Source: Begonia masoniana
Lineage: Eukaryota; Streptophyta; Magnoliopsida; Cucurbitales; Begoniaceae
Direction: 5' to 3'
NCBI GenBank assembly: GCA_022432975.1
Contig: CM039511.1
Location: forward strand, 25,969,153-26,033,152
Length of the DNA stretch: 64,000 nucleotides
Every line of letters starts with the position of its first letter. Position 1 is the stretch's first letter. The notes beneath the pieces are model-generated. The model had not been told where the DNA came from and did no database searches. It saw only the letters and a list, made by a program, of their open reading frames with translations. The position numbers were made by a program, and so were the translations under genes. This document shows positions 1,010 through 62,274 of this stretch, one piece after another.

Positions 1010-1187
1010 TTGCCAAATCAATTTTATACAAATAACTTAAATCTTCTTCTCCCTCATTTCTTTCTCTCCTCGCAGAAACCACAGAGCCTTCTCTCTGTTC
1101 TTCAACGGCGATCCCTCACGGCCGACGCCCGTTTCTCCTCCGATCGACTTCCGATCTTCGCGTTTTCTTCTCCACTCAACGCTATAG
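1010..1187 (+). promoter_or_regulatory. Putative LTR leader exon E1 with upstream TATA-like box (El-A)
   Basis: A TATA-like ttttatac at about 1021-1028 is followed by a CT-rich leader and then by a splice-donor match (ATAG/GTAAGA) at 1188. An ATG-initiated frame runs from 1010 through the leader to the donor, and in this copy it is in phase with the start of E2. sLTR-C has the same arrangement (ttttataaaa near 47494, CT-rich leader, donor at 47659). Transcription start and splicing are inferred from signals only. Confidence 0.35.
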
Positions 1188-1567
1188 GTAAGATTCCGTA
1201 GCTTTGGTACGTTAGGTTTCGATTTTTAAGATTTATGACGATTAGGGTTTTGTTTAGGATTTCGTTAAAAATGTCGATTAGGTTTCGTAATCGATAGATT
1301 TACTATAAATATAGATATAAAGGATGTATGGAACGTTATTGGACGAAATTATAGCGATTTGTGAGAAAAGTCGAAATTGGTGAGATTTAGGGTTTTTAGA
1401 GAAAAATTCGTAAATGGTGGTTTGTGATTTCGAGCGTAGATTGTTCGATAAAACGCCTCGATTAGTTAAATTGAAATTTTAGGAAACTCCTTTGGTTAAG
1501 GATTTTATTAATTTGGACGTTAACGGTTCAAGCGCATTTTTATGATAGTTGTTGTGTTTTGCCTTAG

Positions 1568-2199
1568 GTGCACTACGCTCGTGGACGGAGCTAGCCTTCA
1601 ACGGACGTCAGATAAGTCTCCGCGACTTGTTTGGCCGATTGGCCTACACCATATGATCTTCTGTTGTTCGAGGAAATTGGAGATTATAGATTAAGTTGGG
1701 TGAATAGGTTGGGTAGTTAGTTTTAGTTAAGTGTTATATGTTTATGTTCGTCGTTTGTATGTTTTAATTATGTTTATAGTATTGCACATGTTCACGCATC
1801 ATGTTTCTGAAAAACACGAAAAAGGAATTTCTATGCATGTTTTCATGAAAAGGGAAAGGATAAAGAAAAGGTATAAATGAATGTAATCTGGTCAAGGAGG
1901 TGGCGGTGGTTCAGACATGGCTGCTTGGGGAGCATGTTTTCCCCCCGGTTAGATACGAGGGGCTATCCAATCGCGGGATGTGCCGCTCCTATCTAGCGAG
2001 AGTGAGGCCACGATGACGTCTCTGTAATGTAACGAAATGAAATGAATAGCGAAAAGGTAGGACGCATGTTTTACAAACTGCATGCATGACATTCACTTGC
2101 ATTCACGTAGACTTACTGAGCCTTAAGCTCACGACTCATGTTTATGGTGTAGGTGACGTAGATCCAGGTGAGGATGACGTCCCTCCTCCTGATGTCTGA
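1568..2199 (+). other. LTR mini-gene blocks E2 (1568-1611) and E3 (2153-2199), El-A
   Basis: E2 follows GCCTTAG and is 44 nt, one base shorter than the 45 nt of sLTR-B, sLTR-K, sLTR-C and El-L right. E3 follows ATGGTGTAG, and its frame reads GDVDPGEDDVPPPDV before TGA at 2197. The intron ends carry CCTACACCAT (1643-1652) and ATGGTGTAGG (2144-2153), a perfect 10-bp inverted pair. The donor is mutated and the frame shifted, so this is a decayed copy of the module. Confidence 0.5.
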
Positions 2200-11405: not shown

Positions 11406-12531
11406 CTACCAAAATACAAAGCCCCATATCCCCCGAAGACCATGGTCGAGGCGCCCCGACAACTGCCCGCACCGACGTGCCCCGTGTGCCACCAACTGCC
11501 GCCTAATCCTGGCTCCATCGTCTAGCTCACCTGTAACCGCGTCGATACCTACACCACCGAACATACACACACACGTAAGCTTACGCTTAGCAAGTAGGAG
11601 ATAACAAATGCGACTAAACAAAATGCAACCAATCCTATCACATGCAGTTTCTACTCGCTATCTTATTCTCGTTTCGTTTTCTATGCATTCTTTTATCATA
11701 GAACCCCTCACCAGTGCTAACCTTGGACCTTCACGCGACTAAGCGACATCCCTATAAAGTCCCTCGCAGGTGCCACCCTAACGCGACTGGACAACTCCCA
11801 AGAAGTCCCTCGCAGGTGTCCGACTCTCACAAAGTCCCTCACAAGTGCCACCTTAACGCGACTGGGCGACTCCCTTGGAGTCCCTCGTAAGTGTCACTCT
11901 AACACGACTGGGCAACTCCACTATAGTCCCTCGCAGGTGTCCACCCTAACGCGACTGGGCAACTCTCGTAGAGTCCCTCGCAGGTGTCACCCTAACACGA
12001 CTGGGCGACTCCAACATAGTCCCTCGCAGGTGTCACCGTAACGCGACTAGGCGACTCACACGGAGTCCCTCGCAGGTGTCACCCTAACGCGACTGGGCGA
12101 CTACACTAAAACCACGCCCCAAGTGCCACCCTAACACGATTGGGTGACTCTCCTTGAGTCCCTCGCGGGTGCCACCTTAACACAACCCCACAAAACCATA
12201 TTGCCACATTGCCTTTCTACTTATCAGTTTTTGTTTCATACTTACCATTCGAAACCATGCTCATGGTCAATACAATGCTTAACCAACAAAGAAAGCAAAA
12301 GAACCAAACAACACCATTTCATACTTACCATTCGAAACCATGCTCCAGGTCAATACAATGCTTAACCAACAAAGAAAGAAAAACAACCAAACAACAAACA
12401 AACAAACAACAAATAGCTTCCTACCGTTCTGTGGTGTAGGCCCGAAGGCAACAAAATACACGTCCACTACTTACCTGATTGCTCAGCTTTAACTAGCACA
12501 CTTCTATCGATCAATTCCTTCATTCGACGAC
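11406..12531 (-). other. LTR mini-gene blocks E3 (11406-11548) and E2 (12475-12531), El-F left LTR
   Basis: Read on the minus strand, E2 (57 nt) lies between TTATTTTAG and a GTAAGTAG donor, contains an ATG, and is open in the phase that joins E3. E3 starts after GGTGGTGTAG. GTATC to the next AG/GTGAG is 18 nt, and the frame stays open for 47 codons to a TAG. The intron ends pair over 14 of 15 positions (ccuacaccac.gaac with guuc.gugguguagg). Splicing is inferred. Confidence 0.45.
11740..12190 (+). repeat. 46-bp tandem repeats in El-F left LTR
   Basis: About nine degenerate copies of a unit of about 46 bp built on CCTAACGCGACTGGGCGACT and GAGTCCCTCGCAGGTGTCAC. It lies in the part of the LTR corresponding to intron 2. 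The same array is at 20880-21335. Confidence 0.85.
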
Positions 12532-14258: not shown

Positions 14259-14899
14259 GTGAACCACGCTCGTGGACGGAGCTAGCCTTGCAACGGACGT
14301 CAGGTAAGTTTTCGTGACTTACTTTGACCAATCGGTCTACACCATACTTCGATGTCGTATCGAGGATCCCTGAAGAGTTGTTTCTTTAATCTGCTTTCGG
14401 TTGGGTAGTTAGGTTTAATTGTTTATAGGTTAGTTTATTTCGGTCTTGATGGTATACATATGTTTGTTTATTGTATGGTTACATTATGCTTATAACTGTT
14501 CATGCATCACGTGTTTCAAAATGGCATGAAAATGGATTTCTGCACGAGTTTTCAAATGAAATGAATAATGAACGAAAATACGTAATCTGTATCTGGTCAC
14601 GCGGGATGGGGCTCAGGCATGGCTGTAGGGTTTGTGAGCATGTACCCCCCTCCTCTAAATCGAAAGTGGTAGTCCGACCGCGGGATGTATCCTTTCCATT
14701 TAGAGGGCTGATATCTCGGTGGCAATCTGTATGAAATGACCTGATATGTCTGATATGCATGTTTTCTGAACTTCATATGCACTGCACGCATGCATCTGCA
14801 TTTACGTAGCTTACTGAGATTTCAATATCTCATATGTGTCTGTATGGTGTAGGTGATCTTGGCTTAGGTGAGGACGAGACCCCTCCACCTGGAGAGTGA
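14259..14899 (+). other. LTR mini-gene blocks E2 (14259-14303) and E3 (14853-14899), sLTR-B
   Basis: E2 is 45 nt between TGCGTAG and CAG/GTAAGT, and E3 follows TATGGTGTAG. Joined in phase, the frame has an RSWTEL segment, then RTSGD, then GEDETPPPGE before TGA at 14897. The intron (14304-14852, 549 bp) has CTACACCATAC (14337-14347) and GTATGGTGTAG (14842-14852), an exact 11-bp inverted pair at its two ends. No transcript evidence; signals and phase only. Confidence 0.5.
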
Positions 14900-15935
14900 C
14901 GCAGTTGACGGAGAATGGCTGCGGTGGTGTGCTGGCGCAGTCGACGCTTACCGACCCGTGGGGAAGTATGTATAGGTTTTGAGGGTTTTTGGAGTGTTTT
15001 GGGCTGATGATGAATTGTATAGAAATTGTAGGATGCTTGGATCTGGTTAGGTGTTAGATTCGTATTTGATGTTTTAAACGTTTTCATTGGAACCTGTTTA
15101 TAAACTGTTTTTGTAAAGTTTTATGGGATTGTTTGATGATAGTTGATAGGTTGGTATTTTGATAGATTGACGTGCAGAGGATTAGGCAAACTATTTATAA
15201 AGCGTTTTTGTTAATTCAGTTATTTGAATGTTATGAACTGCTTGGTGATTTTGTAAACAGGAGGATATGTTACACTTTTAAACGGAACCATGCAGTTCGT
15301 TTTCATGAAAATGTACTTCATTTTAATCGTGTTTAGAGTCGGTTTTGGACAGAGTTACGAGAACGTATGAATGTTTGGAAAGTTTATGTAAAATGTATAA
15401 TTGAAATGGAGATAGAAATGATATTGTGAAGAAGTGATAAGTTGATAAATTGAGGAATGAGAGAAGGTTGAGTGGTTTTATGTAAACTGTTTTTGTATGA
15501 TAAATGAATTTTTCTTTAAAGGTTTTCGAGGATGTTTTTAATTGATTTAGAGGCTTAAAAAGAAAAATTTTGTACGGGAAATTAGGAATAGTTTGAGGGT
15601 CGTTACACAATTAACCTAAACTAACATATCCAAGTGTTAAATGATCAAAAGAGGAAGAAAAACCTCAAGAAGAACCAAATTTTTGGACTCACCAATTTAG
15701 GGTTTTCAAACCCTTACCAAATTGTGATGACCTAAATGTGCAAGTATGAGTACGACTGCGGAAAAAACCTGGGGTTATGGGGCAAACCTCGGGACCTAAG
15801 CCGAGTTTAGGCGAATCTCGTACTTGAGTATAGGCAAATCCAGGGTCGTAAAAAGGGAGTCGTCACAATCACACATCGCTTGGGGAAGTATGTGGAAATG
15901 AAACATATGTAAAGAGACCCTTCCAACACAGCAAG

Positions 15936-16045
15936 ACGCGTTTTGGAGCACAATTGGCAACGGATCCCAAAAGAACTCCGAAGTTAAAAGTGCTTCGGTG
16001 AGAGCAATTCCAGGTTGGGTGGCCTTCTGGGAAGTTCTCACCAAA
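15936..16045 (+). ncRNA. 5S rRNA-like domain in Cassandra LTR1
   Basis: Matches the plant 5S rRNA middle and 3' part: cggatccc, aactccgaagttaa, gtgcttcgg.gagagcaattccaggttgggtg and ctgggaagttctc. The first part of the 5S gene is weakly matched. In Cassandra this region holds RNA polymerase III internal promoter-like sequence. It is not a ribosomal gene in a normal tandem context. Confidence 0.85.
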
Positions 16046-16128
16046 CAAAGCCGTGAGGGGAGGATATTGGGCTACGGCCCAATCCCCAGAGCGGACAATA
16101 TCTTACTGGGAAGTGGGGTCCTTACAAA

Positions 16129-16140
16129 TGGTATCAGAGC
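16129..16140 (+). other. Cassandra primer-binding site
   Basis: TGGTATCAGAGC, two bases after the end of LTR1, complementary to the initiator Met tRNA. It sets the plus orientation of the TRIM. Confidence 0.92.
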
Positions 16141-16369
16141 CTGTACCCAACCAGAAGTGTGGCCAACGAGGACGTTGGACCTAAATGTGCACGTATGAGT
16201 ACGACTGCGGGGCAAACCTCGGGACCAAAGCCGAGTGTAGGCGAATCTCGGACTCGAGTATAGGCGAATCCCGAGTCGTAAAAAGCGAGTCGTCACAATC
16301 CCACATCGCTTTGGGAAGTATGTGGAAATGAAACATTTGTAAAGAGACCTTCCCAATATAGTAAGACGC

Positions 16370-16475
16370 GTTTTGGAGCACAATTGGCAACGGATCCCAT
16401 AAGAACTCCGAAGTTAAAAGTGCTTCGGCGAGAGCAATTCCAAGTTGGGTGACACTCTGGGAAGTTCTCGCCAAA
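16370..16475 (+). ncRNA. 5S rRNA-like domain in Cassandra LTR2
   Basis: Same domain as in LTR1, with cggatcccataagaactcc closer to the 5S consensus. Between the two LTRs a handful of substitutions are visible, so both decayed moderately after insertion. Confidence 0.85.
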
Positions 16476-17224
16476 CAAAGCCGTGAGGGGAGGATATTGG
16501 GCTACGGCTCAATCCCCAGAGCGGACAATATTTTACTGAAAAAAGGGGTCGTTACACAAATTCACCTAAAACACACTAAAAACTCCAACAAACTTCACCT
16601 AAAGTTATAAGAACCAAAACCCATGTGATTTTACCTTGAACTCACTTGAGAAATTGAAGAACAAGGGAGGAGGAAGGGCAGATATGGAGGAGAGGGAGAG
16701 AGAGCCGAAGGAGATGAAGAAGACAAGGAAAAACTTAACATTTATTATCACCTTTTTCTCTTTTTATTTTATTCATTTAATAATCATTTGAAATTACAAT
16801 TAAATCCCTCCTTTTCTCTCTTAGCAGCATACGTGAAGCATCCTAAAATCACCACTTTTTCATACAATTTTTACTAAATTTTGATTGGTTTATGAAGTTT
16901 GATTTTTCAAAGGTTTGAATTTTCAACAATGGAATTTTCAAACCTTACATAATTGCATTTGAAATTTTAATTTAATCCTCCCTTTTTTCCTTAGCAGCCA
17001 ACGTGAATCATCATTCAAACCATCCATTTCTTTTTATAATTTAATCCATTTCAAGCATTTCTATTGGTTGGTAAAACTTTGAATTTTCAACCTAACTCTT
17101 TTTGACTTTTCCACCCTTATTTCTTCTACTTGGTATCTTTGTATTATCCTTTCTCATTTCATTATCTCTTAACACTAAACTCACATACAACCTAGCACGT
17201 TATTAGAATTTTCCGGGTGTTACA

Positions 17225-20061: not shown

Positions 20062-22805
20062 TGTAACGCCCCTGAACCCACCCTGGCTCGGTGCGCTACT
20101 TGGATCACTCTAACCTCGATAATTCTTATAAACAAAAAAATATAAAAATAAAACTGACACAGCAGAATTTAAAGCTAAGTCTCCCGAAGCTCTCTCTTGT
20201 CATACCTAGCTGCCTAGACTCACTAATTTTCCTTAATCCTAACCATTAAGTACCACGACGACCTCCCCAAAAATTTCGACAAATTAACGCCTGAAAATGG
20301 CGCCTCCAAAATGCTAGGTACCTGCAAACGAATAAATCCAAACCAATCCAGAATACTCCTACTCAACTTATCCAGCATACGAAATCACCAAATAGCAGTA
20401 AAAAGGAAAACTAAAATGCTAACATCTCTAAGTGAAGAAAGTCCACAGTATAGGGCGACACATCACCCTTAACTTAGCTATAACTTTCCAATCATCAACC
20501 AAAAAGGGTTATGAATTCCCATCATTTCCATGAATAGAAATCTACAATAAACTACCAAAATACAAAGCCCCATATCCCTTGAAGACAATCGTCGAGGCGC
20601 CCGGACAACTGCTAGCACCGGCGTGCCCCGTGTGCCACCAACTGCCGCCTACTCCTGGCTCCATCGTCTAGCTCACCTGTAACCGCGTCGATACCTACAC
20701 CACAGAACACACACACACACGTAAGCTTACGTTTAGCAAGTAGGGGATAACAAATGCGACTAAATAAAATGCAACCAATCCTATCACATGCAGTTTCTAC
20801 TCGCTATGTTATTCTCGTTTCGTTTTCTATGCATTGTTCTATCATAGAACCCCTCACCAGTGCTAACCTTGCACCTTCACGCGACTAAGTGACTCCCATA
20901 GAGTCCCTCGCAGGTGCAACCCTAACGCGACTGGGCAACTTCCAAGAAGTCCCTTGCAAGTGTCTCACTCTCACAAAGTCCCTCACAAGTGCCACCTTAA
21001 CGCGACTGGGCGACTCCCTTGGAGTCCCTCGTAAGTGTCACTCTAACACGACTGGGCAACTCCACTATAGTCCCTCGCAGGTGTCCACCCTAACGCGACT
21101 GGGCAACTCTCGTAGAGTCCCTCGCAGGTGTCACCCTAACACGACTGGGCGACTCCAACATAGTCCCTCGCAGGTGTCACCGTAACGCGACTAGGCGACT
21201 CACACGGAGTCCCTCGCAGGTGTCACCCTAACGCGACTGGGCGACTACACTAAAACCACGCCCCAAGTGCCACCCTAACACGATTGGGTGACTCTCCTTG
21301 AGTCCCTCGCGGGTGCCACCTTAACACAACCCCACAAAACCATATTGCCACATTGCCTTTCTACTTATCAGTTTTTGTTTCATACTTACCATTCGAAACC
21401 ATGCTCATGGTCAATACAATGCTTAACCAACAAAGAAAGCAAAAGAACCAAACAACACCATTTCATACTTACCATTCGAAACCATGCTCCAGGTCAATAC
21501 AATGCTTAACCAACAAAGAAAGAAAAACAACCAAACAACAAACAAACAAACAACAAACAAACAAACAACAAATAGCTTCCTACCGTTCCGTGGTGTAGGC
21601 CCGAAGGCAACAAAATACACGTCCACTACTTACCTGATTGCTCAGCTTTCACTAGCTCACTTATATCGATCAATTCCTTCATTCGACGACCTAAAATAAC
21701 AAAAACTTAGCTTGATAAGTTACCAATACATTCTAAGGAATTCTTAAACCTAAAACTAACCAACAATTAAAACAATCTCACACTTAAACCCAATTTTTAC
21801 CCAAATTTGACCGTCAAACTTCAAACAGTCATAGCTCTCTCATTTTTCAACGGATTTTGACGCGCCACGCAAATCCGCGAACCTCTACACGTCTACTATC
21901 CATTGAAACATTCAAATCAACCAACCAAACACATTGGCCAATCCGAATCTCCAAAAACAAAATCGGCCATCAAGTGTTCCTAAACCGATTTTTGTGTAAC
22001 ACTCCTCCAATATTCATTCTAACCACTCAATTAACCTAAACTAACATATCCAAGTGTTAAATGATCAAAAGAGGAAGAAAACCCTCAAGGAGAACCAAAT
22101 TTTCGGACTCACCAATTTAGGGTTTTCAAACCCTCACCAAATTCACCTAAAACACACTAAAAACTCCAACAAACTTCACCTAAAGTTATAAGAACCAAAA
22201 CCCATGTGATTTTACCTTGAACTCACTTGAGAAATTGAAGAACAGGGGAGGAGGAAGGGCAGCTATAGAGGAGAGGGAGAGAGAGCCGAAGGAGATGAAG
22301 AAGACAAGTAAAAACTTAACATTTATTATCACCTTTTTCTCTTTTTATTTTATTCCGTTAATAATCATTTGAAATTACAATTAAATCCCTCATTTTCTCT
22401 CTTAGCAGCCAACATGAAACATCCTAAAATCACCACTTTTTCATACAATTTTTACTAAATTTTGATTGGTTTATGAAGTTTGACTTTTCAAAGGTTTGAA
22501 TTTTCAACCATGGAATTTTCAAACCTTACATAATTGCATTTGAAATTTTAATTTAATCCTCCCTTTTTTCCTTAGCAGCCAACGTGAATCATCCTTCAAA
22601 CCATCCATTTCTTTTTATAATTTAATCCATTTCAAGCATTTCTATTGGTTGGTAAAACTTTGAATTTTCAACCTAACTCTTTTTGACTTTTCCACCCTTA
22701 TTTCTTCTACTTGGTATCTTTGTATTATCCTTTCTCATTTCATTATCTCTTAACACTAAACTCACATACAACCTAGCACGTTATTAGAATTTTTCGGGTG
22801 TTACA
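20062..22805 (-). mobile_element. El-F 5' LTR (2744 bp)
   Basis: Near copy of the left LTR without nested insertions, so it gives the empty sites for both sLTR-B and Cassandra. Ends TGTAACACCCG and CAGGGGCGTTACA in element sense. E2 is at 21634-21690 and E3 at 20612-20694 (minus), both open in the joining phase. The intron-end pairing covers about 16 positions including wobble. A 46-bp repeat array lies at 20880-21335. Confidence 0.92.
20880..21335 (+). repeat. 46-bp tandem repeats in El-F right LTR
   Basis: Same degenerate array as at 11740-12190 (gcgactgggcgactc / gagtccctcgcaggtgt). Its shared order of variant units in both LTRs shows the array pre-dates the insertion. Confidence 0.85.
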
Positions 22806-26593: not shown

Positions 26594-27245
26594 GTGACGA
26601 GGCTCGAATCAAGGAGCTCGGTGTGCTAAGGACGCGAGGTAAGTTCTCGTGACTTACTGTGGCCGATTGGCCTACACCATGTGTCAGAATTTGTGTTGAG
26701 GATTGTTGGTGCTTGGTTTGTTTAATTGCTTTTGTTGGGTAGTTAGGATTAGTTGCTTTTATAGATTACACTTTTATCGTCTTGATGGTAAACACGATGT
26801 ATGTTTACGTTATGCTATTGTTTGTCATGCATCATTGTTTATAAATATTATGAAAAAGGAATTTGTGCTTTGATTTCATGAAAATGAAAATGTAAAGAAC
26901 GAAAGTAAAATATCATAGTAAATAACCATGACATAGGGTTATCGGGGATGAAGTTCAGACCCGGCGTTCCTTGGTGAGCGGGTTTCCCTCCCTTTAGATG
27001 GTGTGGGCTGTCTAACCGCTTGATGTGCCCTATCCATCTGTCGAGTGTTTCCGATAACCATAGACTGACGCGTACTGATAAATTAAATGATATGGATGGC
27101 TTTCATGAAAACTGCATATACATGTTCATGCATAGCATTTACATAGAACTTGCTGAGATTTTTATCTCATAGGTGTCTTTATGGTGGAGGTGACTACAAG
27201 CAAGGTGAGGACGATGTCTCTCTACCTGACGAGCCTGCAGTTTGA
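26594..27245 (+). other. LTR mini-gene blocks E2 (26594-26638) and E3 (27190-27245), sLTR-K
   Basis: E2 is 45 nt between TGCTTTAG and CGAG/GTAAGT. E3 follows ATGGTGGAG. The joined frame is open, carries LRTRGD and then GEDDVSLPDEPAV, and ends at TGA 27243. CCTACACCAT (26671-26680) pairs with ATGGTGGAGG at the acceptor with one mismatch. Confidence 0.5.
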
Positions 27246-29424: not shown

Positions 29425-31706
29425 TGTAATACCCGAAACTTTATCGTACACTTTAGTTTTATCATAATTATCACATTATGCTATAAATTTGCTAATTAGT
29501 AGAAATTAATGTAATGGAAGAAATGAAAGAAGAAAAGACAAAAGATTTAAGGGTTTAAAAGGTTGAAAAGTCAAAAAAGTTTATGAACCAACAGAAAAGG
29601 AGAAGACAGATGGAAAAAATGAAATGCCTTCACGTTAAAATAGAATAGAGGAAATAGGAAAGTGAAGAAGAATAAGATTTAATGGTTGGAAAAGTCAAAA
29701 TCCAAAAGAAATGATGAAGAAGGAAAAACCTCCAATGAAGGAATGGCACCTCACTCACTTCTCTAGAATCGTCCTTCACTTTAAGTGGAGAAAGTGGGTT
29801 TTACACCTCCATTTCTTCTTCTTCACGTTGCTTTGTTTTCTCCACGGTTGACGCCTCTTCCTTCCCTCAAAAACTTCATCTCTTGCAAGAAGAACTTGAA
29901 GGTAAGTTGGATTTGAGTTAAATTGATGAAAGAGGTTGATTTTATGAGGATATAGTTGTAATTTAGTTTAGTTTTATGAAGATTTAGTTAACCCTATTAG
30001 TGATGCACGAAATTTGGTTTTCTTTTCCTCATTCCTTGTTATTTTTAAATTTAAAAGGATAATAATGCTTGTATAGGGTTAGATAAAGGAGAAGACATTG
30101 ATTTGGTCGAGAATGTACAAAAGGATAAAATTTTAGGGCAAGTTAGTTTTTGGAAATTTTCGGTTTCTTGAGTTAGTTTTCTTTGATAAATTGGGTTGAG
30201 CATGTGAAAATAGACTCTTCAAGGAGTTCATAGCCGTTGGAATTATTGAATTCGGTTATATATAGCAAAAGATATGGCATTTTGAATTTAGTATCCAATT
30301 TGACAGGAATTCTGAGTTTACATCGAGGATACCTTTTTGATGTATGTTGTTTAATTTCCATGCTTTAGGCTTGAACGTCAAAAAGGAGTTGGATCACATA
30401 TCCGAAAACCAAGCTCAGGACACGAGGTAAGTGCATGGTTGCATGTGCTTGGTCGATTTGCCTACACCATAAAGAGATGTTTAGAATGGTGATTTTTGAG
30501 TTCTTTGTTTTTATGATACATTCATGAATCATAGTTTTTTCAAAGCATAGAAAATAATTTTATGCATATGTTTTCATGTAAACAAGAGCAAAAGAACACA
30601 GAACAGTAAAATACGTAAATAGTTATTGTGGGTAGAGGAATTGAGTTTGGGCTGAGCCGATGGCGGTGCGTCCGCGGGCTCCGAGCCCTGTCCAATCCAT
30701 GATGATGGCGGTGCATCTGCAGGCTGGGCTAAGGGCAGGGGGTCTTTACAAAAAGATGGTCGTTACGCCAGAGGAACAGCAGTTAGGTCATCTTTCCTCT
30801 AAAAGAAGTGCCCCAATAACTTATGTCATGCAAGAAAATTAAAGAATAGAATCAGTGCATGTTTTATAAACAGCATAGCATAGTCATGAACATGCATTTT
30901 TACTTACATCACTTACTGAGCATTAGGCTCATTAGTTTACTTTGTGGTGTAGGTGACGATATCACAGGTGAGGATGCTGATCCTCAGTACAACTAATAGA
31001 GCAGCTGATGAAGGACGTCCATGGAATGTGCTTGGAGCTGCTAGAGCGATTTTGACTTGTGGGCCAGTCATAGATATTTTGGGTAAATATGTATAAACAG
31101 ACGTTTTAAATTTTAGTTAGATAATGGGCTTACAGATTTCTGCCATGTTTTTTCAACATAACTGGGATTGTTGTTGTTTTGAGTTGCTTAACAAAATAAT
31201 GTTGTGTTTTATTTAGGATAACTGTGAATTAGGTTGATTATGGATGAATGGATGATTTGAAGTGTGATTTTTAAGATTTTGATAATGTTCATAGGTTGAA
31301 TGAAAATGTATGGAAGTTATGGTGTTTCATGCGGAAATTTTAGGTGTGTAGTGAAGAAAATGGGGGAAAAAAGAAGAAAGGTGCGAGGTGGGTGTGTTTG
31401 GAAGGAAAAACCCGAATCTCAGCCGATCGGTCGCCCGTTTGGGCGATCGATCGGCCAAATTGATGTTTTTTATAGTGTTTGTCGAGAGGTAGCCGATTGA
31501 TCGGCAAAACACTGTTCGCAAGTACTATTCACCGAAAAAAAAAAGAAAAAAAAAATTAAAATTTGCACACATTTTATATGAAGTTTTATAAATGAAGTTC
31601 ACTCGTTTTGGGGGAAGTTTACAGACGTTTAGTATTTTTATTAAATTTTCTTATTAAATTATATGTTAAATCAAGTTAGTAACGGCCGAATTACGGGTCG
31701 TAACCA
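29425..31706 (+). mobile_element. El-G 5' LTR (2282 bp)
   Basis: Starts TGTAATACCC and ends ACGGGTCGTAACCA just before a primer-binding site. The reverse complement of this LTR family is the El-E LTR at 44968-49850. It holds a donor at 29902, E2 30369-30426, E3 from 30953, and a cgatcgg palindromic cluster at about 31410-31510. The left target duplication cannot be confirmed because the 3' end of El-G is missing. Confidence 0.88.
30369..30996 (+). other. LTR mini-gene blocks E2 (30369-30426) and E3 (30953-30996), El-G
   Basis: E2 is 58 nt between TGCTTTAG and CGAG/GTAAGT. Apart from one TGA near its start it is open and reads LRTRGD into E3. E3 then runs GEDADPQYN to TAA at 30994. GTGAC to AG/GTGAG is 15 nt. 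The El-E copy keeps the same blocks on the minus strand (E2 46377-46434). Confidence 0.42.
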
Positions 31707-31708
31707 TG

Positions 31709-33084: not shown

Positions 33085-33530
33085 TGTAACGACCCTCATA
33101 CTATTCTTAATTTCCCGTACGACCTCATACTATTCTTAATTTCCCTACGAAAATTTTCTTTTTCCTTTAGACTTATGTTAATTGGAAAACAATTTAATAA
33201 AACGTTTAAAACAATTACAAAACAATTATTTAAACCAACATTTAAAATCAATTTAATAACTAATAGAACACTCGGCCAAGGAGGGAGGGGCAAAAGAGTC
33301 AAACAGAAAAAGACAAGTTCTTCTTTCTTTTATCACCTAAATATAACTTCAACATCTTACACCCTAACGCCCTTCTTCACCATTTCATAACAAACATACT
33401 TTTCACAATACAATTCGAGCGTAAAACCGCTCTATACTCTCACTCGGAACGACTCAGACATAGTTAAATAAAACACGTTTTCAACGAAAACAAACTGCGT
33501 GGATCCGTTTAAAACTAAACAATCCCTCAT

Positions 33531-34797
33531 TTATCAGATAGTCGTCTCATTCTCAGTTCATACATTCATTCATTTATCAGATAGTCGTCTCATTCTCAGT
33601 TCATACATTCATTCATTTATCAGATAGTCGTCTCATTCTCAGTTCATACATTCATTCATTTATCAGATAGTCGTCTCATTCTCAGTTCATACATTCATTC
33701 ATTTATCAGATAGTCGTCTCATTCTCAGTTCATACATTCATTCATTTATCAGATAGTCGTCTCATTCTCAGTTCATACATTCATTCATTTATCAGATAGT
33801 CGTCTCATTCTCAGTTCATACATTCATTCATTTATCAGATAGTCGTCTCATTCTCAGTTCATACATTCATTCATTTATCAGATAGTCGTCTCATTCTCAG
33901 TTCATACATTCATTCATTTATCAGATAGTCGTCTCATTCTCAGTTCATACATTCATTCATTTATCAGATAGTCGTCTCATTCTCAGTTCATACATTCATT
34001 CATTTATCAGATAGTCGTCTCATTCTCAGTTCATACATTCATTCATTTATCAGATAGTCGTCTCATTCTCAGTTCATACATTCATTCATTTATCAGATAG
34101 TCGTCTCATTCTCAGTTCATACATTCATTCATTTATCAGATAGTCGTCTCATTCTCAGTTCATACATTCATTCATTTATCAGATAGTCGTCTCATTCTCA
34201 GTTCATACATTCATTCATTTATCAGATAGTCGTCTCATTCTCAGTTCATACATTCATTCATTTATCAGATAGTCGTCTCATTCTCAGTTCATACATTCAT
34301 TCATTTATCAGATAGTCGTCTCATTCTCAGTTCATACATTCATTCATTTATCAGATAGTCGTCTCATTCTCAGTTCATACATTCATTCATTTATCAGATA
34401 GTCGTCTCATTCTCAGTTCATACATTCATTCATTTATCAGATAGTCGTCTCATTCTCAGTTCATACATTCATTCATTTATCAGATAGTCGTCTCATTCTC
34501 AGTTCATACATTCATTCATTTATCAGATAGTCGTCTCATTCTCAGTTCATACATTCATTCATTTATCAGATAGTCGTCTCATTCTCAGTTCATACATTCA
34601 TTCATTTATCAGATAGTCGTCTCATTCTCAGTTCATACATTCATTCATTTATCAGATAGTCGTCTCATTCTCAGTTCATACATTCATTCATTTATCAGAT
34701 AGTCGTCTCATTCTCAGTTCATACATTCATTCATTTATCAGATAGTCGTCTCATTCTCAGTTCATACATTCATTCATTTATCAGATAGTCGTCTCAT
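33531..34797 (+). repeat. 43-bp minisatellite, about 29.5 copies
   Basis: Near-perfect units of 43 bp beginning TTATCAGATAGTCGTCTCAT, first at 33531, second at 33574, last (partial) at 34778. It occupies the place in the El-L left LTR where other LTRs have E3 and the end of intron 2, and no GGTGTAG acceptor is found there. The uniformity shows recent expansion. Decayed single units continue to about 34880. Confidence 0.97.
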
Positions 34798-35136
34798 TTA
34801 TCAGTTCAAAGTCATCTCATATCAGTCATCTCATTTAAGTCGTCATAGTCATCTCATATTAGTCGTCTCATTTCATGTCATCACATTTCTTTTTCTTTCA
34901 TGAAATCCATGCATAAATTCGTTTTCATGACGTTTATAAAACAGTGATGCATGAAATAAGGCATAACATAAACATACAGCGTACATACTATCAAACAATA
35001 CAGCACTAACCCTAAAAAGGCTAACCCTAAACTACCCAACCAAAGCGAATAAACACACATAACTCCAAATATCCTCGACAACGAAACACGACATATGGTG
35101 TAGGCCTATTGGCCACAGCAAATCACGAGAACTTAC

Positions 35137-35188
35137 CTGTCGTCTGTAGCTTGCTGAGTTTCGCACCACACGTCACATATAGCTCGAC
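35137..35188 (-). other. LTR mini-gene block E2 of El-L left LTR, without E3
   Basis: The minus strand has TTGTCATAG, then 52 nt, then CAG/GTAAGTT and the ggcctacaccat motif. The block is open in the usual phase. The matching acceptor and E3 are missing; the 43-bp array sits there instead. Confidence 0.4.
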
Positions 35189-40155: not shown

Positions 40156-40821
40156 TCAAGCCTCAGGAGGAGGAATCCCATCCTCACCTGGTTCCTCGAT
40201 ATCTAGGTCACCTACACCATACAATACACTATGAGATGAAATCCCAGTAAGCTATACGTAAATGCAATGCATGCTGTACGTATGAGTTCGGTAAATCATG
40301 CTTTATTTTATCTTACTATGCAATGCTCAATAGGTGTCACCGAGATCCTATCCCTCTAACCAGAGATAGCTCATCCAGCGGGCGGACTACTCTTTCCAGC
40401 TAGAGGTGGGGGGTGCACGCTTACAACACGTTCAGCCGTGCCTGAGCCCCACCTCGCGTGACCAATACGCCTTTCGGCCAATACTATACTCAATACGCCT
40501 TTCGGCCAGTGCTATGCTTTACGTTATCTTTAAAACTCTGTGCAGAAATTCATTTTCATGCTTTTCTTTAAAACAAGTGATGCGTGAACAGTTCAATATC
40601 ATACAGTAAACAAGCAATAATATGTACCATCAAGACTGTAAAGCGTAAACTATAAACTCCTAAAACCTAGCTACCCAAGCCAAATACAATTAAACAAACG
40701 CATCTCCAAAACTCCTCGAGACGACATTCGACGTACGGTGTAGGCCAATCGGCCAAAGAAGATCATGAGAACTTACCTCGTGTCCAAAACAGCTCAAGCT
40801 CCATCCACGAGCGTTGTTTGT
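40156..40821 (-). other. LTR mini-gene blocks E3 (40156-40211) and E2 (40777-40821), El-L right LTR
   Basis: E2 is exactly 45 nt between TCGCTTCAG and CGAG/GTAAGTT. The joined frame is open, with QRSWMELEL, then TRGD, then PGEDGIPPPEA before TGA (40156-40158). GTGAC to AG/GTGAG is 24 nt. The intron ends pair over 12 positions with one wobble (ccuacaccguac with guaugguguagg). Confidence 0.5.
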
Positions 40822-42059: not shown

Positions 42060-44297
42060 TTTAACGCCCCCGAACCCACCCTGGTTCGGTGCCCTAATTT
42101 GCACAATAATTTTGCGTTTAAAACAAAATTTAAAATAATTTTTTGACTCGATTTTTGGGTTTTTTGAACCCTTGAAAACGGTGGGAAAACATGCGTGAAA
42201 TACGTGTCAAACGTGTCGAAAAAGATCGGGTTAAAACATATTTGAAAATCGAAAAAAATATAAAAAAAAACAGGTCTGGTCCGATCTAATCGGCGCGCGC
42301 GCACCAAACACTTCCAAATTTCCTAAAATTTTTACCATACATTCCCAACATCCCCGACTCTGTGCCCCGTAAAAATCTCAAAAAACCGACTTAAAAGGAT
42401 TAGTGAAAATATAGAGACAATAGAACCCGACGTTGTTTGTTATAAAAAAAATGGACAGAATAACGACTGCAATTTCACAAACCAAAACCTTAAATACAAA
42501 GTCTTAAAAATCATTCCACAAAACCACCACTAGCCACAATCATCCAAAATAGCTAGGAAAAATATCAACAATACAAAATACCAAAACTCTCCACCAACTA
42601 CCTGAAGAACGTGGCCGAGACGCCCCGACAAGTGCCAGCACCAGCATACTCCATGCATCATTGACTGCTGCCTAATCCTGGGCTCTCTCATCTAGCTCAC
42701 CTGAATAAAGATCGTCACCTACACCATAAAACACGAAAAGTAAGCCTAATGCTTAGTAAGTAGGGAATAACGAATGCACATAACACACAATGCAACTCAA
42801 TCTTATCACATGCAGTTTCTAACTCTCAGTTGTTCTCGGTACATGTTCGTTGCATTAATCTTATCATAAGCTGTGTGGATCAAGTAGGCACACATCTCAT
42901 AACTGTCTAAGATGGCCACGCCTTGATCCAACCAAGTAAAACCGGTTAGCACACATCCCATAATTGTCTAGGATGGCCAAGCATGATTTGCCTTACCCAC
43001 ATTGATCGTAGAACCCTATGACTGTCTAGGAGTTCATACTCTCGATGTCTTAAATATTTTAGCTAAACCACTCTCTCGCAAAGATCCCTTTGGGGTGCTA
43101 CACTCCAGCAACTATTCCCGACAAGGCCACTTTACTCGAGACCAGTTCTTGCAATCTTTTTTATCTTAATTCAATTCACATTCACGATTCAAAACAATGC
43201 ACAAAATTGTTTTCGTAACTGAAAAACTGTGATGCATGTCAGAAGAATATGCAACACAACATCGCGAAACAAGAAACTGACCGTTAATCCTACCGTTCCA
43301 TGGTGTAGGCCTAAGGCAACAAAAAGAATTCCTCTACTTACCTAACTGCTCGGCACTTGCTTGATCACTTCGTCTGGACATAAAATTACTCGCTCGACAA
43401 CCTAATAAATATAGGAAATAACTTAGAATTTCTAACCAAAACTAACAACAATACAAACCAATTCAAACTCTAAACCCTAAACCCGATTTTTCCACCAATT
43501 TTTAGTGCCCAACTTTGAACGCCCATAACTTACTCGTTTTTCAATGAATTTTGACGTTCCACCCCAATCCTTAAACCTCTACACGTCTACTATCCATTGA
43601 AACACTCAAACAATGGCCAATCTGAAATGCATAAAACAGAACCGGTGTTCTTACTCCACAAATCCGATTTTTCCATAACTCCCTTCCAATCTCAAATATA
43701 TCCCTAAAAACAACCTAAACTAATATCATTAAGGGTTTAAACTATCAATTAGGAAGAAACTAGCCAAGAGACACAAAATTTTCGGAGCTCCCAATCTAGG
43801 GTTTTTAAACCCTAACTAAAATCAACCAAAACACCCTAAAAACACCTAAAATAGACAATAAATCATACCAAACTCAAAACCCACTCAACTTACCACTCAA
43901 AACCCTTGCAAGAATTGAAGAAAATGGAGGTGAAGGATCGGCTATGGAGGCTTGAAGAACTGAGAGAAAATGAGGGAGAAAGAAGAATTTTTGCCATTTA
44001 ACCTAAAAGTTTCTTTCTCTTTTAATTTTCTTCCACCAATTTCTTTAAAATTTCAAATCAACTCTCCCTTTTCTCTCTCAAATTCCAACGTGAAGCATCA
44101 CATGAAATGCCCCTTTTTTTCACACACTTCTTTGTCATTTCATTGGCTAAACTCCTTTGACTTGTCAACCATAGCTTTTGACTCTTCATTTTGTTCAAAA
44201 CTTAAGCCCTCATTGTTCAAAACTTAACCCCTCATCCCTTAACATTAAGGTCTAAGTCTAATATCACACATGTGATAGAAAAATTCTGGGTGTTACA
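42060..44297 (-). mobile_element. sLTR-H: solo LTR, 2238 bp
   Basis: Plus-strand left end TTTAACGCCCCCGAACCCACC, right end GGGTGTTACA; same family as the El-F and sLTR-M LTRs. Flanks GAGAG (42055-42059) and GAAAG (44298-44302) are a target duplication with one mismatch. E2 is 43342-43401 (60 nt) and E3 starts at 42718 on the minus strand; the joined frame is open. Intron-end pairing covers about 16 positions including wobble. Confidence 0.8.
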
Positions 44298-44967: not shown

Positions 44968-47900
44968 TGTTACGACCCGTAATTCGGCCGTTACTAACTT
45001 GATTTAACGTAAAAGTTTATAAGAAAATTTAATAAAAATACTAAACGTCTGTAAATTTCCCCCAAAACGAGTGAACTTCATTTATAAAACTTCATATAAA
45101 ATGTGTGCAAATTTTAAATTTTTTTTTCTTTTTTTCGGTGAATAGTACATGTGAACAGTGTTTTGCCGATCGATTGGCTAAATTAGCCAATCGATCGGCT
45201 ACCTCTCGGCCAACACTATAAAAAACATCAATTTGGCCGATCGATCGCCCAAACCAGCGACCGATCGGCTGAGATTCGGGTTTTTCCTTCCAAACACACC
45301 CACCTCGCACCTTTCTTTCTTTTTCCCTCATTTTCTTCACTACACAACTAAAATCTCCTCATGAAACACCATAACTTCCATACATTTTCATTCAACCTAT
45401 GAACATTATCAAAATCTTAAAAATCACACTTTAAATCATCCATTCATCCATAATCAACCTAATTCACAGTTATCCCAAATCAAACACAACGTTATTTTGT
45501 TAAGCAACTCAAAACAACAACAATCTCAGTTTTGTTCACAAAACATGGTGGAAATCTATAAGCCCATTATCTAACTAAAATTTAAAACGTCTGTTTATAC
45601 ATATTTACCCAAAATACCTACGACTGGTCCATATGTCAAAATCACTCTAGCAGCTCCAAGCACACTCCATGGAGGTCCTTCATCAACTGCTCTGTTAGTT
45701 GTACTGAGGATCAACATCCTCACCTGTGATATCGTCACCTACACCACAAAGTAAACTAATGAGCCTAATGCTCAGTAAGTGATCTAAGTAAAAATGCATG
45801 CTCATGACTATGCTATGCTTTTTATAAAACATGCACTGATTCTATTCTTTAATTTTCTTGCATGACATAAGTTATTGGGGGCATTTCTTTTAGAAGAAAG
45901 ATGGCTTAACTGTTGTTCCTCTGGCGGAACGACAATCTTTTTAGAAAGACCCCCTGACCTGAGCCCAGCCTGCGGATGCACCGCCATTGGCATGGATTGG
46001 ACAGGGCTCGGTGCCTGCGGACGCACTGCCATCGGCCCAGCCCAAACTCAATTCCCCTACCCATAATAACTATTTACGTATTTTACTGTTCTGTGTTCTT
46101 TTGCTCTTGTTTACATGAAAACATATGCATAAAATTATTTTCTATGCTTTGAAAAAAACTATGATGCATGAATGTATGCCACATTGCAAAATTCTTAAAA
46201 CTGTAAACGAGTAATATACTACTAAACAATCAACAAATACACTATCATAAAAACTCACAACCTAAATTATCTACCCCCAAACCAACACTCTCAAACAAAG
46301 AACTCCAAAATCACCATTCTAAACATCTCTTTGTGGTGTACGCCAATCGGCCAAGCACATGCAACCATGCACTTACCTTGTGTCCAGAGCTTGGTTTTTG
46401 GATATGTGATCCAACTCCTTTTTGACGTTCAAACCTAAAGCATGAAAATTAAACAACATACATCAAAAAGGTATCCACGATGTAAACTCGGAATTCCTGT
46501 CAAATTGGATACTAAATTCAAAATGTCATATCTTTTGCTATATATAACCGAATTCAATAATTTCAATGGCTATGAACTCCTTGAAGAGTCTATTTTCACA
46601 TGCTTAGCCCAATTTATCAAAGAAAACTAACTCAAGAAACCGAAAATTTCTAAAAACTAACTTGCCCTAAAATTTTATCCTTTTGTACATTCTCGACCAA
46701 ATCAATGTCTTCTCCTTTATCTAACCCTATACAAGCATTATTATCCTTTTAAATATCAAAACAACAAGGAATGAGGAAAATAAAACCAAATTTCATGCAT
46801 CACTAATAAGGTTAACTAAATCTTCATAAAACTCAACTAAATTACAACTATATCCTCATAAAATCAACCTCTTTCATCAATTTAACTCAAATCCAACTTA
46901 CCTTCAAGTTCTTATTGCAAGAGATGAAGTTTTTGAGGGAAGGAAGAGGCGTCAACCGTGGAGAAAACAAAGCAACGTGAAGGAGAAGAAATGGAGGTGT
47001 AAAAACAACTTTCTCCACTTAAAGTGAAGGACGATTCTAGAGAAGTGAGTGAGGTGTCATTCCTTCATTGGAGGCTTTTCCTTCTGTAATACCCGGCTTG
47101 TACGGATTTTTGGTTTTAATATATTATATTCATATTTTATAATATAGTGGCATTTTCATAAATATGTCAAATCAAATCAGTTTCGTAAACGGAAAGCGTC
47201 ATTTCGGTCCTAACGATTTATGGGATTTTTAAGGAAATTATGAGAATTTTCGGAGTTTAGATGCTATATTCCGAGTAATTACCTCTATCGTAATATGAAG
47301 AACGTTTTGGTAAAAATAGTAAACGGGGTCCAAATTGCGAACGGACAGTTTTAATAAATCCCTGGCAATGAATAGGAGTTATTGGCAAAATATGGAACTT
47401 TCGAGAAATCGAAAAGTTGGACGATTAACGAACCGAAGGACGAAACAAAATAGAAATAAGAGCTAAGGGCGTTTTGGTAATCTGCCAAACCAATTTTATA
47501 AAATCACAATTGCTTCTCTCTTTCCCTCATTTCTTCCTGCGCGATTTACAGAGAGCTATTTCCTCTCCCTGGCCATCGACGACTTCTCACATTCCGACTT
47601 CCGTTCTCCTCCGTTTATCTTCCGTTCTTCATGATTCTTCCTCCAATCGCAATCATAGGTATGAATCTATGACTCTATAGTGTTAGTTTTCAATTTTCGG
47701 ACCGATTTCACGTTAGGGTTTCGTCAAAAATGCGAATTAGGGTTCGTAATTAATAGGGTAGCCTTGATTAAGTATATATTGCACGTATTTGACGTTATTG
47801 GACGAAGTTAAATCAAATCGTGAAAAGGTTAAAAATTAGGAATTTTTGGAAAAGTTCGTTAATTGTAATTTCGAACCATCGAGCATGAATTAGTCGTTTA

Positions 47901-48016: not shown

Positions 48017-48685
48017 GTGAACGACTCTCTTGGACGAAGCTCGAGAATCTGTGCGCTCAAGGTAAGTTCTCGTGACTTACTCTGGCCGATTGGCCTACAC
48101 CGTATTTCGATGTCGCGTCGAGGATGTTAAAGGATCGTTTGTTTTATTTGCTTTGGTTGGGTAGTTAGGTTAAAACGTTTTGTAGGTTATTTCATTTACA
48201 GTCTTGATGGTATATATGTGTTTGTTTATTGTATGTTTATATTATGCTCATATCTGTTCATGCATCACGTATTTCAAATGTCATGAAAATGAATTTCTGC
48301 ACGTGTTTTAAGAAAAGAAAATGAACCTCTGTAATGAATGAACGTAATCTGTCTGTATCTGGTCACGCGAGGTGGGGCTTAGGCACGGCTGTGCGTGTTG
48401 CAAGCGTGTACCCCCCTCCTCTAGCTGGAAAGAGTAGTCCGACCGCAGGATGGGCTCCCTCCGGTTAGTGGGTTGCGATCTCGGTGACAATCTGTCTGTC
48501 TGCGACGTAATGAATCTGTATCTGAATCTGAATATGCATGTTTTCTGAATGGCATACGCACGCATGCATCTGCATTTACGAAGCTTACTGAGATTTTATT
48601 ATCTCATAGGTGTCTGTATGGTGTAGGTGACGTTATAGGTGATGTAGATCCAGGTGAGGACGATGTTCCTCCATCTGATGTCTGA
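48017..48685 (+). other. LTR mini-gene blocks E2 (48017-48061) and E3 (48627-48685), sLTR-C
   Basis: E2 is 45 nt between TTGCTTAG and CAAG/GTAAGT. The joined frame is open with LSWTKLENL, then GDVIGDVDPGEDDVPPSDV, ending at TGA 48683. GTGAC to the second AG/GTGAG is 27 nt. An in-phase ATG lies in E1 eight codons before the donor at 47659. Intron ends: CCTACACCGTAT (48094-48105) with GTATGGTGTAGG (48616-48627), paired throughout if wobble is allowed. Confidence 0.52.
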
Positions 48686-51879: not shown

Positions 51880-51920
51880 GGTGGCGATCGATCGCCGCTC
51901 AGCGGCGATCGATCGCCACC
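51880..51920 (-). repeat. Long perfect palindrome in sLTR-M
   Basis: Arms of 19 bp (GGTGGCGATCGATCGCCGC at 51880-51898 and its complement at 51902-51920) around TCA. A second, weaker copy of the gcggcgatcgatcgcc motif follows at about 51965-51995. It sits about 200 bp from the LTR end, as in the other islands. Confidence 0.9.
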
Positions 51921-53178: not shown

Positions 53179-53795
53179 GTAACCCAAGCTCACAGGACGG
53201 TGCTCGGCATATCTAGGACGCCAGGTAAGTGAGTGTTAGGTTTTCCGGCCCCTAAGGCCCTACGTCGTACGATGTTGATAATGTTTATTGTGATGAAGTA
53301 GGAAGTTATAGGGGTTGGTAGAAAGACGGGTAGTTTAAGTAGTGCCTTAGCGATTTAGTTAGTGCTCATTTGATAGGTTTCCTTATGCGTGTTATTCCTC
53401 ATGCATCATGTTTTATTAAAGTGCATACGAACTATTTATGAGCATGTTTTATGAAAACGTCGAATTAAAGAACGATCATGAATTCTGAATGATGAATGTT
53501 ACCACGGGGCAAGTTATGAATGTTATCACGGGGCAAGTTATGAATGTTATCACGGGGCAAGTTACGAATGTTACCACGTGGCAAGTTATGAATGTTACCA
53601 CGGGGCAAGTTACGATTTTCACGGGGCAAGAAAATGGTTAAACGAAACGAAACGAAATTGTTTTACAAATGTCATGCATATATGTAATGTTATGTTTAGT
53701 ATACTCCTTACTAAGCATTAGGCTTAATGTATTTATCGTATGATGTAGGTGACGAGAACGAAGGTGAGGAACCACCTTATGATGATCAAGTGTAG
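53179..53795 (+). other. LTR mini-gene blocks E2 (53179-53224) and E3 (53749-53795), El-D 5' LTR
   Basis: E2 is 46 nt between GCCCTAG and CCAG/GTAAGT. The joined frame is open with RTPGDENEGEEPPYDDQV, ending at TAG 53793. CCTACGTCGTACG (53259-53271) and CGTATGATGTAGG (53737-53749) pair at all 13 positions with two wobbles, although both sides differ from the other LTRs. One C-G pair has become U-A. The 3' LTR keeps E2 60228-60273 and E3 60798-60844. Confidence 0.5.
53492..53630 (+). repeat. 24-bp tandem repeats in El-D 5' LTR
   Basis: Five 24-bp units (ATGAATGTTACCACGGGGCA with variants) plus a partial sixth. The 3' LTR has the same array at 60542-60680. Lies inside intron 2. Confidence 0.92.
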
Positions 53796-54415: not shown

Positions 54416-54658
54416 TTCTTGGCCATTTAAAAAAAATATATATTTTAATTTAATTGTTTTCTTTTATTAATTAATTGATTTAATTGTTTAAGTTTTATTG
54501 TTTTAATAATTGTTTTAAATGATTTACTAAACGAACTTTGATTTCGATTTCGATTGCAATTTTCGTCTTAAGTACAGTTAAAGAAAAAGAGTAAAGTGTA
54601 AAAAAAAAAAAAAAAAATAGTACGGAAATCGGGTACGGTATTAGAGTCGTCACAGTTA

Positions 54659-60227: not shown

Positions 60228-60844
60228 GTAACCCAAGCTCACAGGACGGTGCTCGGCATATCTAGGACGCCAGGTAAGTGAGTGTTAGGTTTTCCGACCC
60301 CTAAGGCCCTACGTCGTACGATGTTGATAATGTTTATTGTGATGAAGTAGGAAGTTATAGGGGTTGGTAGAAAGACGGGTAGTTTAAGTAGTGCCTTAGC
60401 GATTTAGTTAGTGCTCATTTGATAGGTTTCCTTATGCGTGTTATTCCTCATGCATCATGTTTTAATTAAAGTGCATACGAACTATTTATGAGCATGTTTT
60501 ATGAAAACGTCGAATTAAAGAACGATCATGAATTCTGAATGATGAATGTTACCACGGGGCAAGTTATGAATGTTATCACGGGGCAAGTTATGAATGTTAT
60601 CACGGGGCAAGTTACGAATGTTACCACTGGGCAAGTTATGAATGTTACCACGGGGCAAGTTACGATTTTCACGGGGCAAGAAAATGGTTAAACGAAACGA
60701 AACGAAATTGTTTTACAAATGTCATGCATATATGTAATGTTATGTTTAGCACACTCCTTACTAAGCATTAGGCTTAATGTATTATCGTATGATGTAGGTG
60801 ACGAGAATGAAGGTGAGGAACCACCTTATGATGATCAAATGTAG
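60228..60844 (+). other. LTR mini-gene blocks E2 (60228-60273) and E3 (60798-60844), El-D 3' LTR
   Basis: Same as in the 5' LTR, with a few substitutions that leave splice signals, phase and stop (TAG 60842) in place. Confidence 0.5.
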
Positions 60845-61500: not shown

Positions 61501-62274
61501 TCTTCTTGGCAATTTAAAAAAAAAATGTTTTAATTTAATTGTTTTCTTTTATTAATTAATTGACTTAATTGTTTAAGTTTTATTGTTTTAATAATTGTTT
61601 TAAATGATTTACTAAACGAACTTTGATTTCGATTTCGATTACGATTTCCGTCTTAAGTACAGTTAAAGAAAAAGAGTAAAGTGTAAAAAAAAAAAAAAAA
61701 AATAGTACGGAAATCGGGTACGGTGTCACACAACCAACTTGCAAATCTCCAAAATAGTTACGACAATATTTATAACTACTACGTACTCAACCGTCCACTT
61801 TTTAAAACAAAATCTTTATAAAACACTTACAAAAAACCATCTACAACAAACATTCACCTCCCACACTACCCGAGGAAGACAATGGTCCAGACGCCCCGAC
61901 AATAGCCTGCACCGGCGGACTCCGTACTCCTCCGACTGTAGCCTAATCCTCGGCTGTCTCATCTACCTCACCTGTATAGAACTCGTCACCTACACCACAG
62001 AACACAGAAAGTAAGCCTAACGCTTAGCAGGTAGGGAAATAATGCACAACACATCAACACATGCTCGACTCAACCCTAAACATGCAGTTTCTACTCACTC
62101 TGTTGTTTTTTTTCATTTCGGTTACATTTGTCTTTCACTTTCAGGTGAATCAAGTAGGCACACGCCCCCACACAGTCCAGGACGGCCACGCCTTGATCCA
62201 CGGAGCAAGACCGGAGGCACACGTCCTAACACAGTCCGGGACGGCCAACCGAATCTCCTCCTTGGTCGATCGTA

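Follow-up and report, generated by a model that had tools for sequence, protein, structure and literature searches.

Coding sequence inside an LTR, as here, is known from MMTV sag and similar LTR-encoded ORFs, although sag is a long ORF and belongs to a vertebrate retrovirus. The plant Copia elements EVADE and BARE1 are reported to produce spliced subgenomic RNAs encoding only Gag (PMC12786077, PMC3735527), the plant Ty3 (Gypsy) elements Ogre and CRR carry introns (PMC3735527; Ogre also in PMC12786077), and the C. elegans LTR retrotransposon Cer1 has a protein, CERV, needed for the export of unspliced RNA (PMC10309623, PMC12786077).

The stretch of 64,000 nucleotides of Begonia masoniana DNA analysed here (the window) contains LTRs that repeat an exon-like series, named E1, E2 and E3. 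It resembles EVADE and BARE1 in that unspliced RNA would coexist with a spliced mRNA whose coding sequence gains a new short end; the intron of those elements lies in gag/pro, whereas here the predicted exons lie inside the LTR, are mostly devoid of AUG, and have a helix over the acceptor. Splicing in Ogre and CRR is described between or within internal ORFs, in contrast to the LTR location predicted here. As with CERV, which belongs to an animal element, an extra product would come from a spliced retroelement mRNA, and by analogy Cer1 provides a precedent for a product of spliced retroelement RNA that serves the unspliced RNA. No spliced or coding unit in plant LTRs appeared in the open literature among the matches listed, and a sunflower study reports Tekay elements as absent from an expressed set (PMC7730604), which is of no help to a claim of expression. 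In viral contigs, 58 matches to a 16-letter word were obtained, none with the rest of the layout, a second word gave 0 matches, and an RT search of viral and genome contigs recovered no relative.

A shared splice-like layout in the LTRs

Plant LTR elements of the Ty3 type lie nested in one another across the window. Matches to Pfam Retrotrans_gag, RVP_2, RVT_1 and RT_RNaseH came from different elements, and the Gag, PR, RT and RNase H domains, together with an LTR pair and a tRNA primer site, identify Ty3/Gypsy LTR retrotransposons. The LTR pair 52368-54639/59416-61724 (the element of copies p53 and p60) is 96.4% alike, and the primer site TGGTATCAGAG stands just after the LTR. Many LTR pairs in the window are merely 60-70% alike, and have nevertheless retained the donor, the acceptor and E3. 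The first-pass annotation's placement in Tekay is provisional: no Pfam chromodomain, the domain that follows integrase in chromoviruses of this lineage, was found at E up to 10 in the one ORF searched, the stop-terminated ORF at 58336-59325 of a single element. Between the primer site and the gag ATG, four elements (at 31707 and 54657 on the plus strand, and 39327 and about 20060 on the minus strand) show an intron-like stretch running from ACT/GTAAGT (TTAAGT in one) to YAG/GA...AAAATG.

A search of the window for the acceptor word, allowing up to 4 mismatches, yielded 19 matches, 13 of which were E3 acceptors and 6 of which were discarded by eye. The E2 donor position, intron 2, the acceptor and E3 were common to all 13 LTR copies, with intron 2 measuring 524-939 nt, and a pyrimidine-rich E1 with a donor could be located in 11 of them. 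The acceptor reads TRTGRTGKAG in 12 copies and GGTGGTGTAG in m11; that of copy K is TATGGTGGAG. The word AGGTAAGT occurs 16 times in the window against 2.3 expected, 13 of these being E2 donors (counting a fourteenth LTR copy at 35138, minus strand) and 2 being E1 donors, and AGGTGAG occurs 16 times against 4.8 expected, 13 of them at E3. The fourteenth copy, whose E2 measures 52 nt by eye, has kept its 5' half and lost E3, with a tandem array in its place. These results confirm that the shared splice-like layout is real and beyond chance.

The first-pass annotation had described the same order of signals in at least ten diverged LTRs, which the 13 copies bear out, and its junctions at 14303/14853, 26638/27190, 48061/48627 and 53224/53749 proved correct as positions. 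Its 45-nt E2 was recovered in B, K, m40 and p48, and the distances of 15, 18, 24 or 27 nt from GTGAC to AG/GTGAG were likewise recovered. The wider range of 44-60 nt for E2 agrees with the lengths of 44, 45, 46, 57, 58 or 60 nt found in the 13 copies, but the AG/GTAAGT said to bound E2 in every copy is intact in only 12 of 13, the donor of El-A having mutated to AG/ATAAGT. The features are listed below; the start of El-A E1 was guessed from composition (pyrimidine-rich after a TATA-like box), and the names TATA-like, and branch-point-like for CTTAC, are putative labels.

1053..1187, plus strand: El-A exon 1, no ATG, donor CTATAG/GTAAGA, start approximate
1188..1567, plus strand: El-A intron 1
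1568..1611, plus strand: El-A exon 2, 44 nt, own donor AG/ATAAGT
1612..2152, plus strand: El-A intron 2, 541 nt
1633..1644, plus strand: El-A hairpin P2, GGCC-GATT-GGCC
1643..1653, plus strand: El-A helix P1, 5' arm, CCTACACCATA
2117..2131, plus strand: El-A hairpin P3, TGAGC-CTTAA-GCTCA, directly 3' of CTTAC
2143..2153, plus strand: 3' arm of El-A helix P1, TATGGTGTAGG, which covers the E3 acceptor
2153..2199, plus strand: El-A exon 3, 15-nt variable part and coding tail to the stop (GDVDPGEDDVPPPDV, then stop)
14259..14303, plus strand: copy B exon 2, 45 nt
14853..14899, plus strand: copy B exon 3 to stop
26594..26638, plus strand: copy K exon 2, 45 nt
27190..27245, plus strand: copy K exon 3 to stop
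30369..30426, plus strand: copy p30 exon 2, 58 nt
30953..30996, plus strand: copy p30 exon 3 to stop
40777..40821, minus strand: copy m40 exon 2, 45 nt, in-frame ATG
40156..40211, minus strand: copy m40 exon 3 to stop
43342..43401, minus strand: copy m42 exon 2, 60 nt
42672..42718, minus strand: copy m42 exon 3 to stop
46377..46434, minus strand: copy m45 exon 2, 58 nt
45695..45738, minus strand: copy m45 exon 3 to stop
48017..48061, plus strand: copy p48 exon 2, 45 nt
48627..48685, plus strand: copy p48 exon 3 to stop
53179..53224, plus strand: copy p53 exon 2 (5' LTR, about 52368-54655)
53749..53795, plus strand: copy p53 exon 3 to stop
60228..60273, plus strand: copy p60 exon 2 (3' LTR of the same element as p53)
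60798..60844, plus strand: copy p60 exon 3 to stop
61943..61989, minus strand: copy m61 exon 3 to stop
20677..20694, minus strand: variable part of exon 3 in copy m20, with a frameshift in the tail
11531..11548, minus strand: variable part of exon 3 in copy m11, with a frameshift in the tail
35090..35138, minus strand: LTR keeping donor, P2 and P1 5' arm; E3 not found, tandem array instead

Several repeats were observed in and around these LTRs. The interior of intron 2 is variable and in several LTRs holds lineage-specific tandem repeats (11833-12181, 20977-21325, 53492-53630, 60542-60680 and 62274-62406), and at 33527-34808, in an LTR without a found E3, a 43-bp unit is tandemly repeated about 30 times at 99%. 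GC-rich palindromic blocks of the GCTGCA- and GATCGATC-type lie at 2689-2826, in El-A downstream of E3, and at 51881-52042. Two 87% repeats at 15729-16556, inside another LTR, include 5S rRNA-like matches (15940-16052 and 16370-16482) and presumably represent a Cassandra-like small element. An Rfam scan of the window returned no match above the gathering score for the intron, only two 5S-like matches elsewhere.

Coding constraint across E3, E2 and E1

Across the whole genome (795 Mb), exact matches numbered 10,768 for the E3 pattern and 7,071 for the E2 pattern, with 0 for the reversed control in both cases. A sample of 113 genome loci was examined, 27 obtained because they resemble El-A (four places being represented twice) and 86 with the E3 pattern, which fixes the acceptor and AGGTGAG; the copies are related to one another. 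After 10 matches without donor or P1 (the helix described below) and identical copies were dropped, 94 distinct copies with E3, donor and P1 were retained, all from one genome; 89 of them carried the donor AGGTAAGT. The E2-E3 joined form GGACRCGAG/GTGAC, which uses the E2 ending of at least 28 of the 86 listed E2, had 0 matches in the 795 Mb.

The variable part of E3 was a multiple of three in 93 of the 94 copies (54 of 55 distinct sequences), with 15, 18, 24, 27, 21 and 12 nt in 43, 17, 16, 11, 5 and 1 copies, respectively, and 26 nt in one copy. Intron 2 was unphased (remainders 0, 1 and 2 in 35, 30 and 29 copies), and so was the spacing from CTTAC to the acceptor (remainders in 18, 20 and 11 of 49 distinct sequences, the word being present in 77 of the 94 copies), indicating that the length phase begins at the acceptor. 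The contrast between E3 indels in multiples of three and an intron 2 free of this rule, for which the first-pass annotation had suggested looking, was found in the genome copies.

In 70 of the 94 copies GGTGAG was followed by eight codons and a stop (TGA in 60, TAG in 8 and TAA in 2). The 24 nt before the stop, referred to as the tail, varied mostly at third codon positions: variability in the first tail codon was 0.03, 0.06 and 0.51 by position and most other codons were similar, with the exceptions of the fourth, nearly invariable, the third, whose first base varies as well, and the last, in which the second base does. The tail had a pN/pS of 0.35 in frame versus 1.44 and 1.45 in the other frames (39 distinct tails), and 3' of the stop the phases differed little (0.24, 0.25 and 0.30). 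When the tails were collapsed to 17, the phase was matched by 7 of 20,000 column permutations. For E3 plus tail, this frame had the lowest pN/pS of the three in each of five length classes, although the variable part alone did not favour the frame by pN/pS (15 nt: 0.72 versus 0.50 and 0.98), only its length being phased. A second family type, with an 18-nt E3 and an end like GEVDETAED, gave 0.61 versus 0.89 and 1.14 in a sample of 13 copies, 9 of them with the stop in place. The window-only test was weak, with 0.90 for E3 plus tail (13 copies) and 0.55 in the El-A-like five.

Judged by these comparisons, E3 is coding, with a frame that ends at the stop and a tail under purifying selection. A constrained frame ending in a stop, the mark of an LTR-resident coding gene, was present in the E3 tail, and the acidic, Pro-rich end with a stop in one frame, already noted in the first-pass annotation, was borne out. 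All 13 window copies have an unchanged AGGTGAG in E3, which exceeds what the Gly-Glu codons need and makes it a possible donor, and the four elements noted above have an intron-like stretch with an acceptor directly 5' of the gag ATG; a join from E3 to gag may exist beside the coding end.

Other readings of this region were tried and rejected. Antisense frame 1 of the tail ties at a pN/pS of 0.35, but exchanges of D with E and of V with I, together with the alternation among stop codons, accord with the sense strand, and antisense coding was rejected on these grounds despite the tie. E3 as a non-coding microexon, the first reading of the window data, was overturned by the genome copies. The unspliced frame ahead of E3 is open for 11-46 codons with no Met common to the window copies, and it was dismissed as coding sequence for want of a shared Met and for its unphased spacing. 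In a protein look-up, none of 356 candidates was retained at E up to 1, and a second look-up gave no candidate.

E2 measured 45 nt in 64 of the 86 distinct listed strings and was a multiple of three in 67. Stops fell in 4 of the 64 strings of 45 nt in the E3 frame, versus 22 and 64 in the other frames; in another set, 35 distinct 45-nt E2 from fetched copies, the figures were 5 in frame and 6 and 28 otherwise. The pN/pS of E2 was 0.78 in the genome copies, versus 0.84 and 1.02 in the other frames, and 1.01 in the window-only test (13 copies). In the 94 copies, 57 E2 were multiples of three, 34 were not and 3 copies had no E2 call, and 21 copies carried a stop in E2. El-A relatives have an E2 of 43 or 44 nt; those with 43 nt (loci L064-L066 and L071-L074) occur at several places, and their E2 and E3 do not keep the phase seen elsewhere. 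E2 is usually in frame with E3 but hardly constrained: the proposed single open phase of E2 and E3 is favoured by length (67 of 86) and by the stops of the listed strings (4, 22 and 64), and weakened by the stops of the fetched copies (5, 6 and 28), the pN/pS of 0.78 and the 43- and 44-nt copies.

For E1, the last nine codons gave a pN/pS of 1.01 versus 0.62 and 1.36, without codon constraint, and E1 as a coding part of the mini-gene was not borne out. No ATG was present in E1 (last 110 nt), E2 and E3 in 50 of the 62 genome copies with a called E1, and in the 12 ATG-bearing copies the first ATG was in frame in 3; the window, where it was in frame in 6 of 7, gave a hint that the genome did not support, and no conserved AUG start was found. 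ATGs in the window copies numbered 8, versus 15.1 expected by shuffling, and their density was low across E1, E2 and E3 and jumped after GTGAG. ACG was the commonest codon at E1 position -28 (34 of 62) and at codon 6 of the 45-nt E2 (38 of 45), which offers, as a lead, a common candidate non-AUG start in both E2 and E1.

Pairing across intron 2

The acceptor region can pair with a site in intron 2, 31-34 nt after the E2 donor, forming a helix named P1 that goes beyond the earlier reading of this DNA. This donor-proximal site was the best partner of the acceptor within 900 nt in 10 of the 13 window copies and the second best in two others, m45 and p48; it was absent from the partners listed for K, whose acceptor differs by one base. 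P1 scored above every same-intron control (313-354) in 12 of 13 copies, K being the exception. Over 15 pairs, 90.3% of the cells were paired in the 13 copies, and shifting the partner by one to three columns reduced pairing to 29-50%. None of 500 shuffles reached the paired share, the count of cells with both sides altered or the covariation score, but 55 of 500 reached the 6 pairs in which both sides had changed, and 356 of 500 reached the number of further pair types. In the families P1 is extended by different letters that still pair.

Mismatches over 14 pairs in the window comprised 17 G-U, 0 A-C and 12 other cells, suggesting that P1 acts on the sense strand, with the caveat that C-to-T mutation could produce extra G-U pairs. 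Ten pairs were kept in 92 of the 94 genome copies (67 G-U, 0 A-C and 2 other cells), a count from copies whose selection had already required the 3' arm and a near match to the 5' arm. In 8 of 13 copies the minimum-energy fold included 9 or more of the 11 P1 pairs; in B, K, p48, p53 and p60 it included none. A hairpin stands beside each arm (P2 and P3); P3, 3' of CTTAC, shows a G-C to A-U change (7 and 6 copies) with 1 G-U and 1 A-C cell, its stems being named by eye, and P2 and P3 alone seldom exceed shuffles of one sequence. Comparison of the copies points to P1 as a conserved long-range helix from the E2-donor side to the E3 acceptor. Conserved long-range intronic pairings near splice sites are described for human genes, where pairing is depleted at active sites (PMC8052449), whereas P1 would cover the presumed acceptor in nearly all copies examined.

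Competing explanations and significance

The LTR sequences contain a unit in which the end of E3 is coding, lengths are phased from the acceptor onward, and a frame running to a stop, a helix and donor words are present. The conserved spliced short protein proposed in the first-pass annotation holds for the spliced-looking unit and the coding end of E3, and is unsupported for E1 and weaker for E2, splicing itself being a prediction. Our preferred explanation, which we regard as probable, is that these LTRs carry their own three-exon unit with a structured intron 2, yielding a small accessory peptide from a non-AUG start. The first exon, E1, would be poor in AUG, E2 would be short and in most copies in frame, and E3 would be the terminal coding exon, supplying an acidic, Pro-rich peptide end and the stop, with the spliceosome presumably using the sites of all three. 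The E2 donor is near perfect and the E3 acceptor lacks a pyrimidine tract and lies within the helix; on this basis we propose that the intron ends are drawn close to each other and the acceptor is yet held, leaving the RNA partly spliced. P1 would draw E2 to E3 while masking the acceptor, part of the RNA would stay unspliced and available for reverse transcription, which needs that form, and the spliced RNA would be translated into the small accessory peptide from a non-AUG start. That the unit is a gene, kept in the LTRs of a plant Ty3 lineage, for a small acidic accessory protein with a non-AUG start, in which P1 gates splicing and so sets mRNA against template, is a more specific proposal that we advance tentatively and hold to be doubtful.

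E3 could instead be the C-terminal exon of another protein, such as Gag, spliced into the 3' LTR with E1 and E2 as leaders. A coding E3 end next to weakly or unconstrained E1 and E2, mostly without AUG, would suit this, as would the spliced Gag-only RNAs described for plant Copia elements in the available text (PMC12786077, PMC3735527), but the four gag regions scanned in the window had no phase-matching donor at a common position, most of the listed E2 strings are in frame with E3, and P1 links the E2 donor to E3, and we find this account unlikely. Quite improbable in our judgement is a non-coding spliced leader, in which E3 would be a 12-27 nt microexon joined from AG/GTGAG to an acceptor before the gag ATG, so that an AUG-poor leader makes gag the first ORF. 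The invariant AGGTGAG (13/13), the YAG/GA...AAAATG acceptor at gag in the four elements examined and the scarcity of ATGs in E1, E2 and E3 with many after GTGAG all agree with it; the codon-position constraint that continues after GTGAG up to the stop does not, since it is not expected of a removed intron.

The conservation of P1 with its sense-type wobbles would also fit an RNA that is not spliced at all, P1-P3 and the flanking words forming a structural signal of the genomic RNA (packaging, dimer or export), yet this leaves unexplained the donor words at a fixed distance (89/94) and the length phase from the acceptor, and we consider it very improbable. Since the copies are all homologous and many may be old, a functionless pattern in related, decaying sequences would account for some of the likeness, but the phase-specific constraint, the pair changes on both sides and the different stops at one place argue against decay, to which we give hardly any credence.

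The preferred explanation, a three-exon unit within the LTR, bears on how these sequences are viewed, plant LTRs being usually treated as promoters and ends and not as genes. If it is true, thousands of LTRs with a spliced coding unit would supply both expressed peptides and splice sites in the neighbourhood of host genes. The P1 helix gives a direct prediction that can be tested by mutation and compensation, and the unit would provide a handle on how plant retrotransposon RNA is split between translation and replication.
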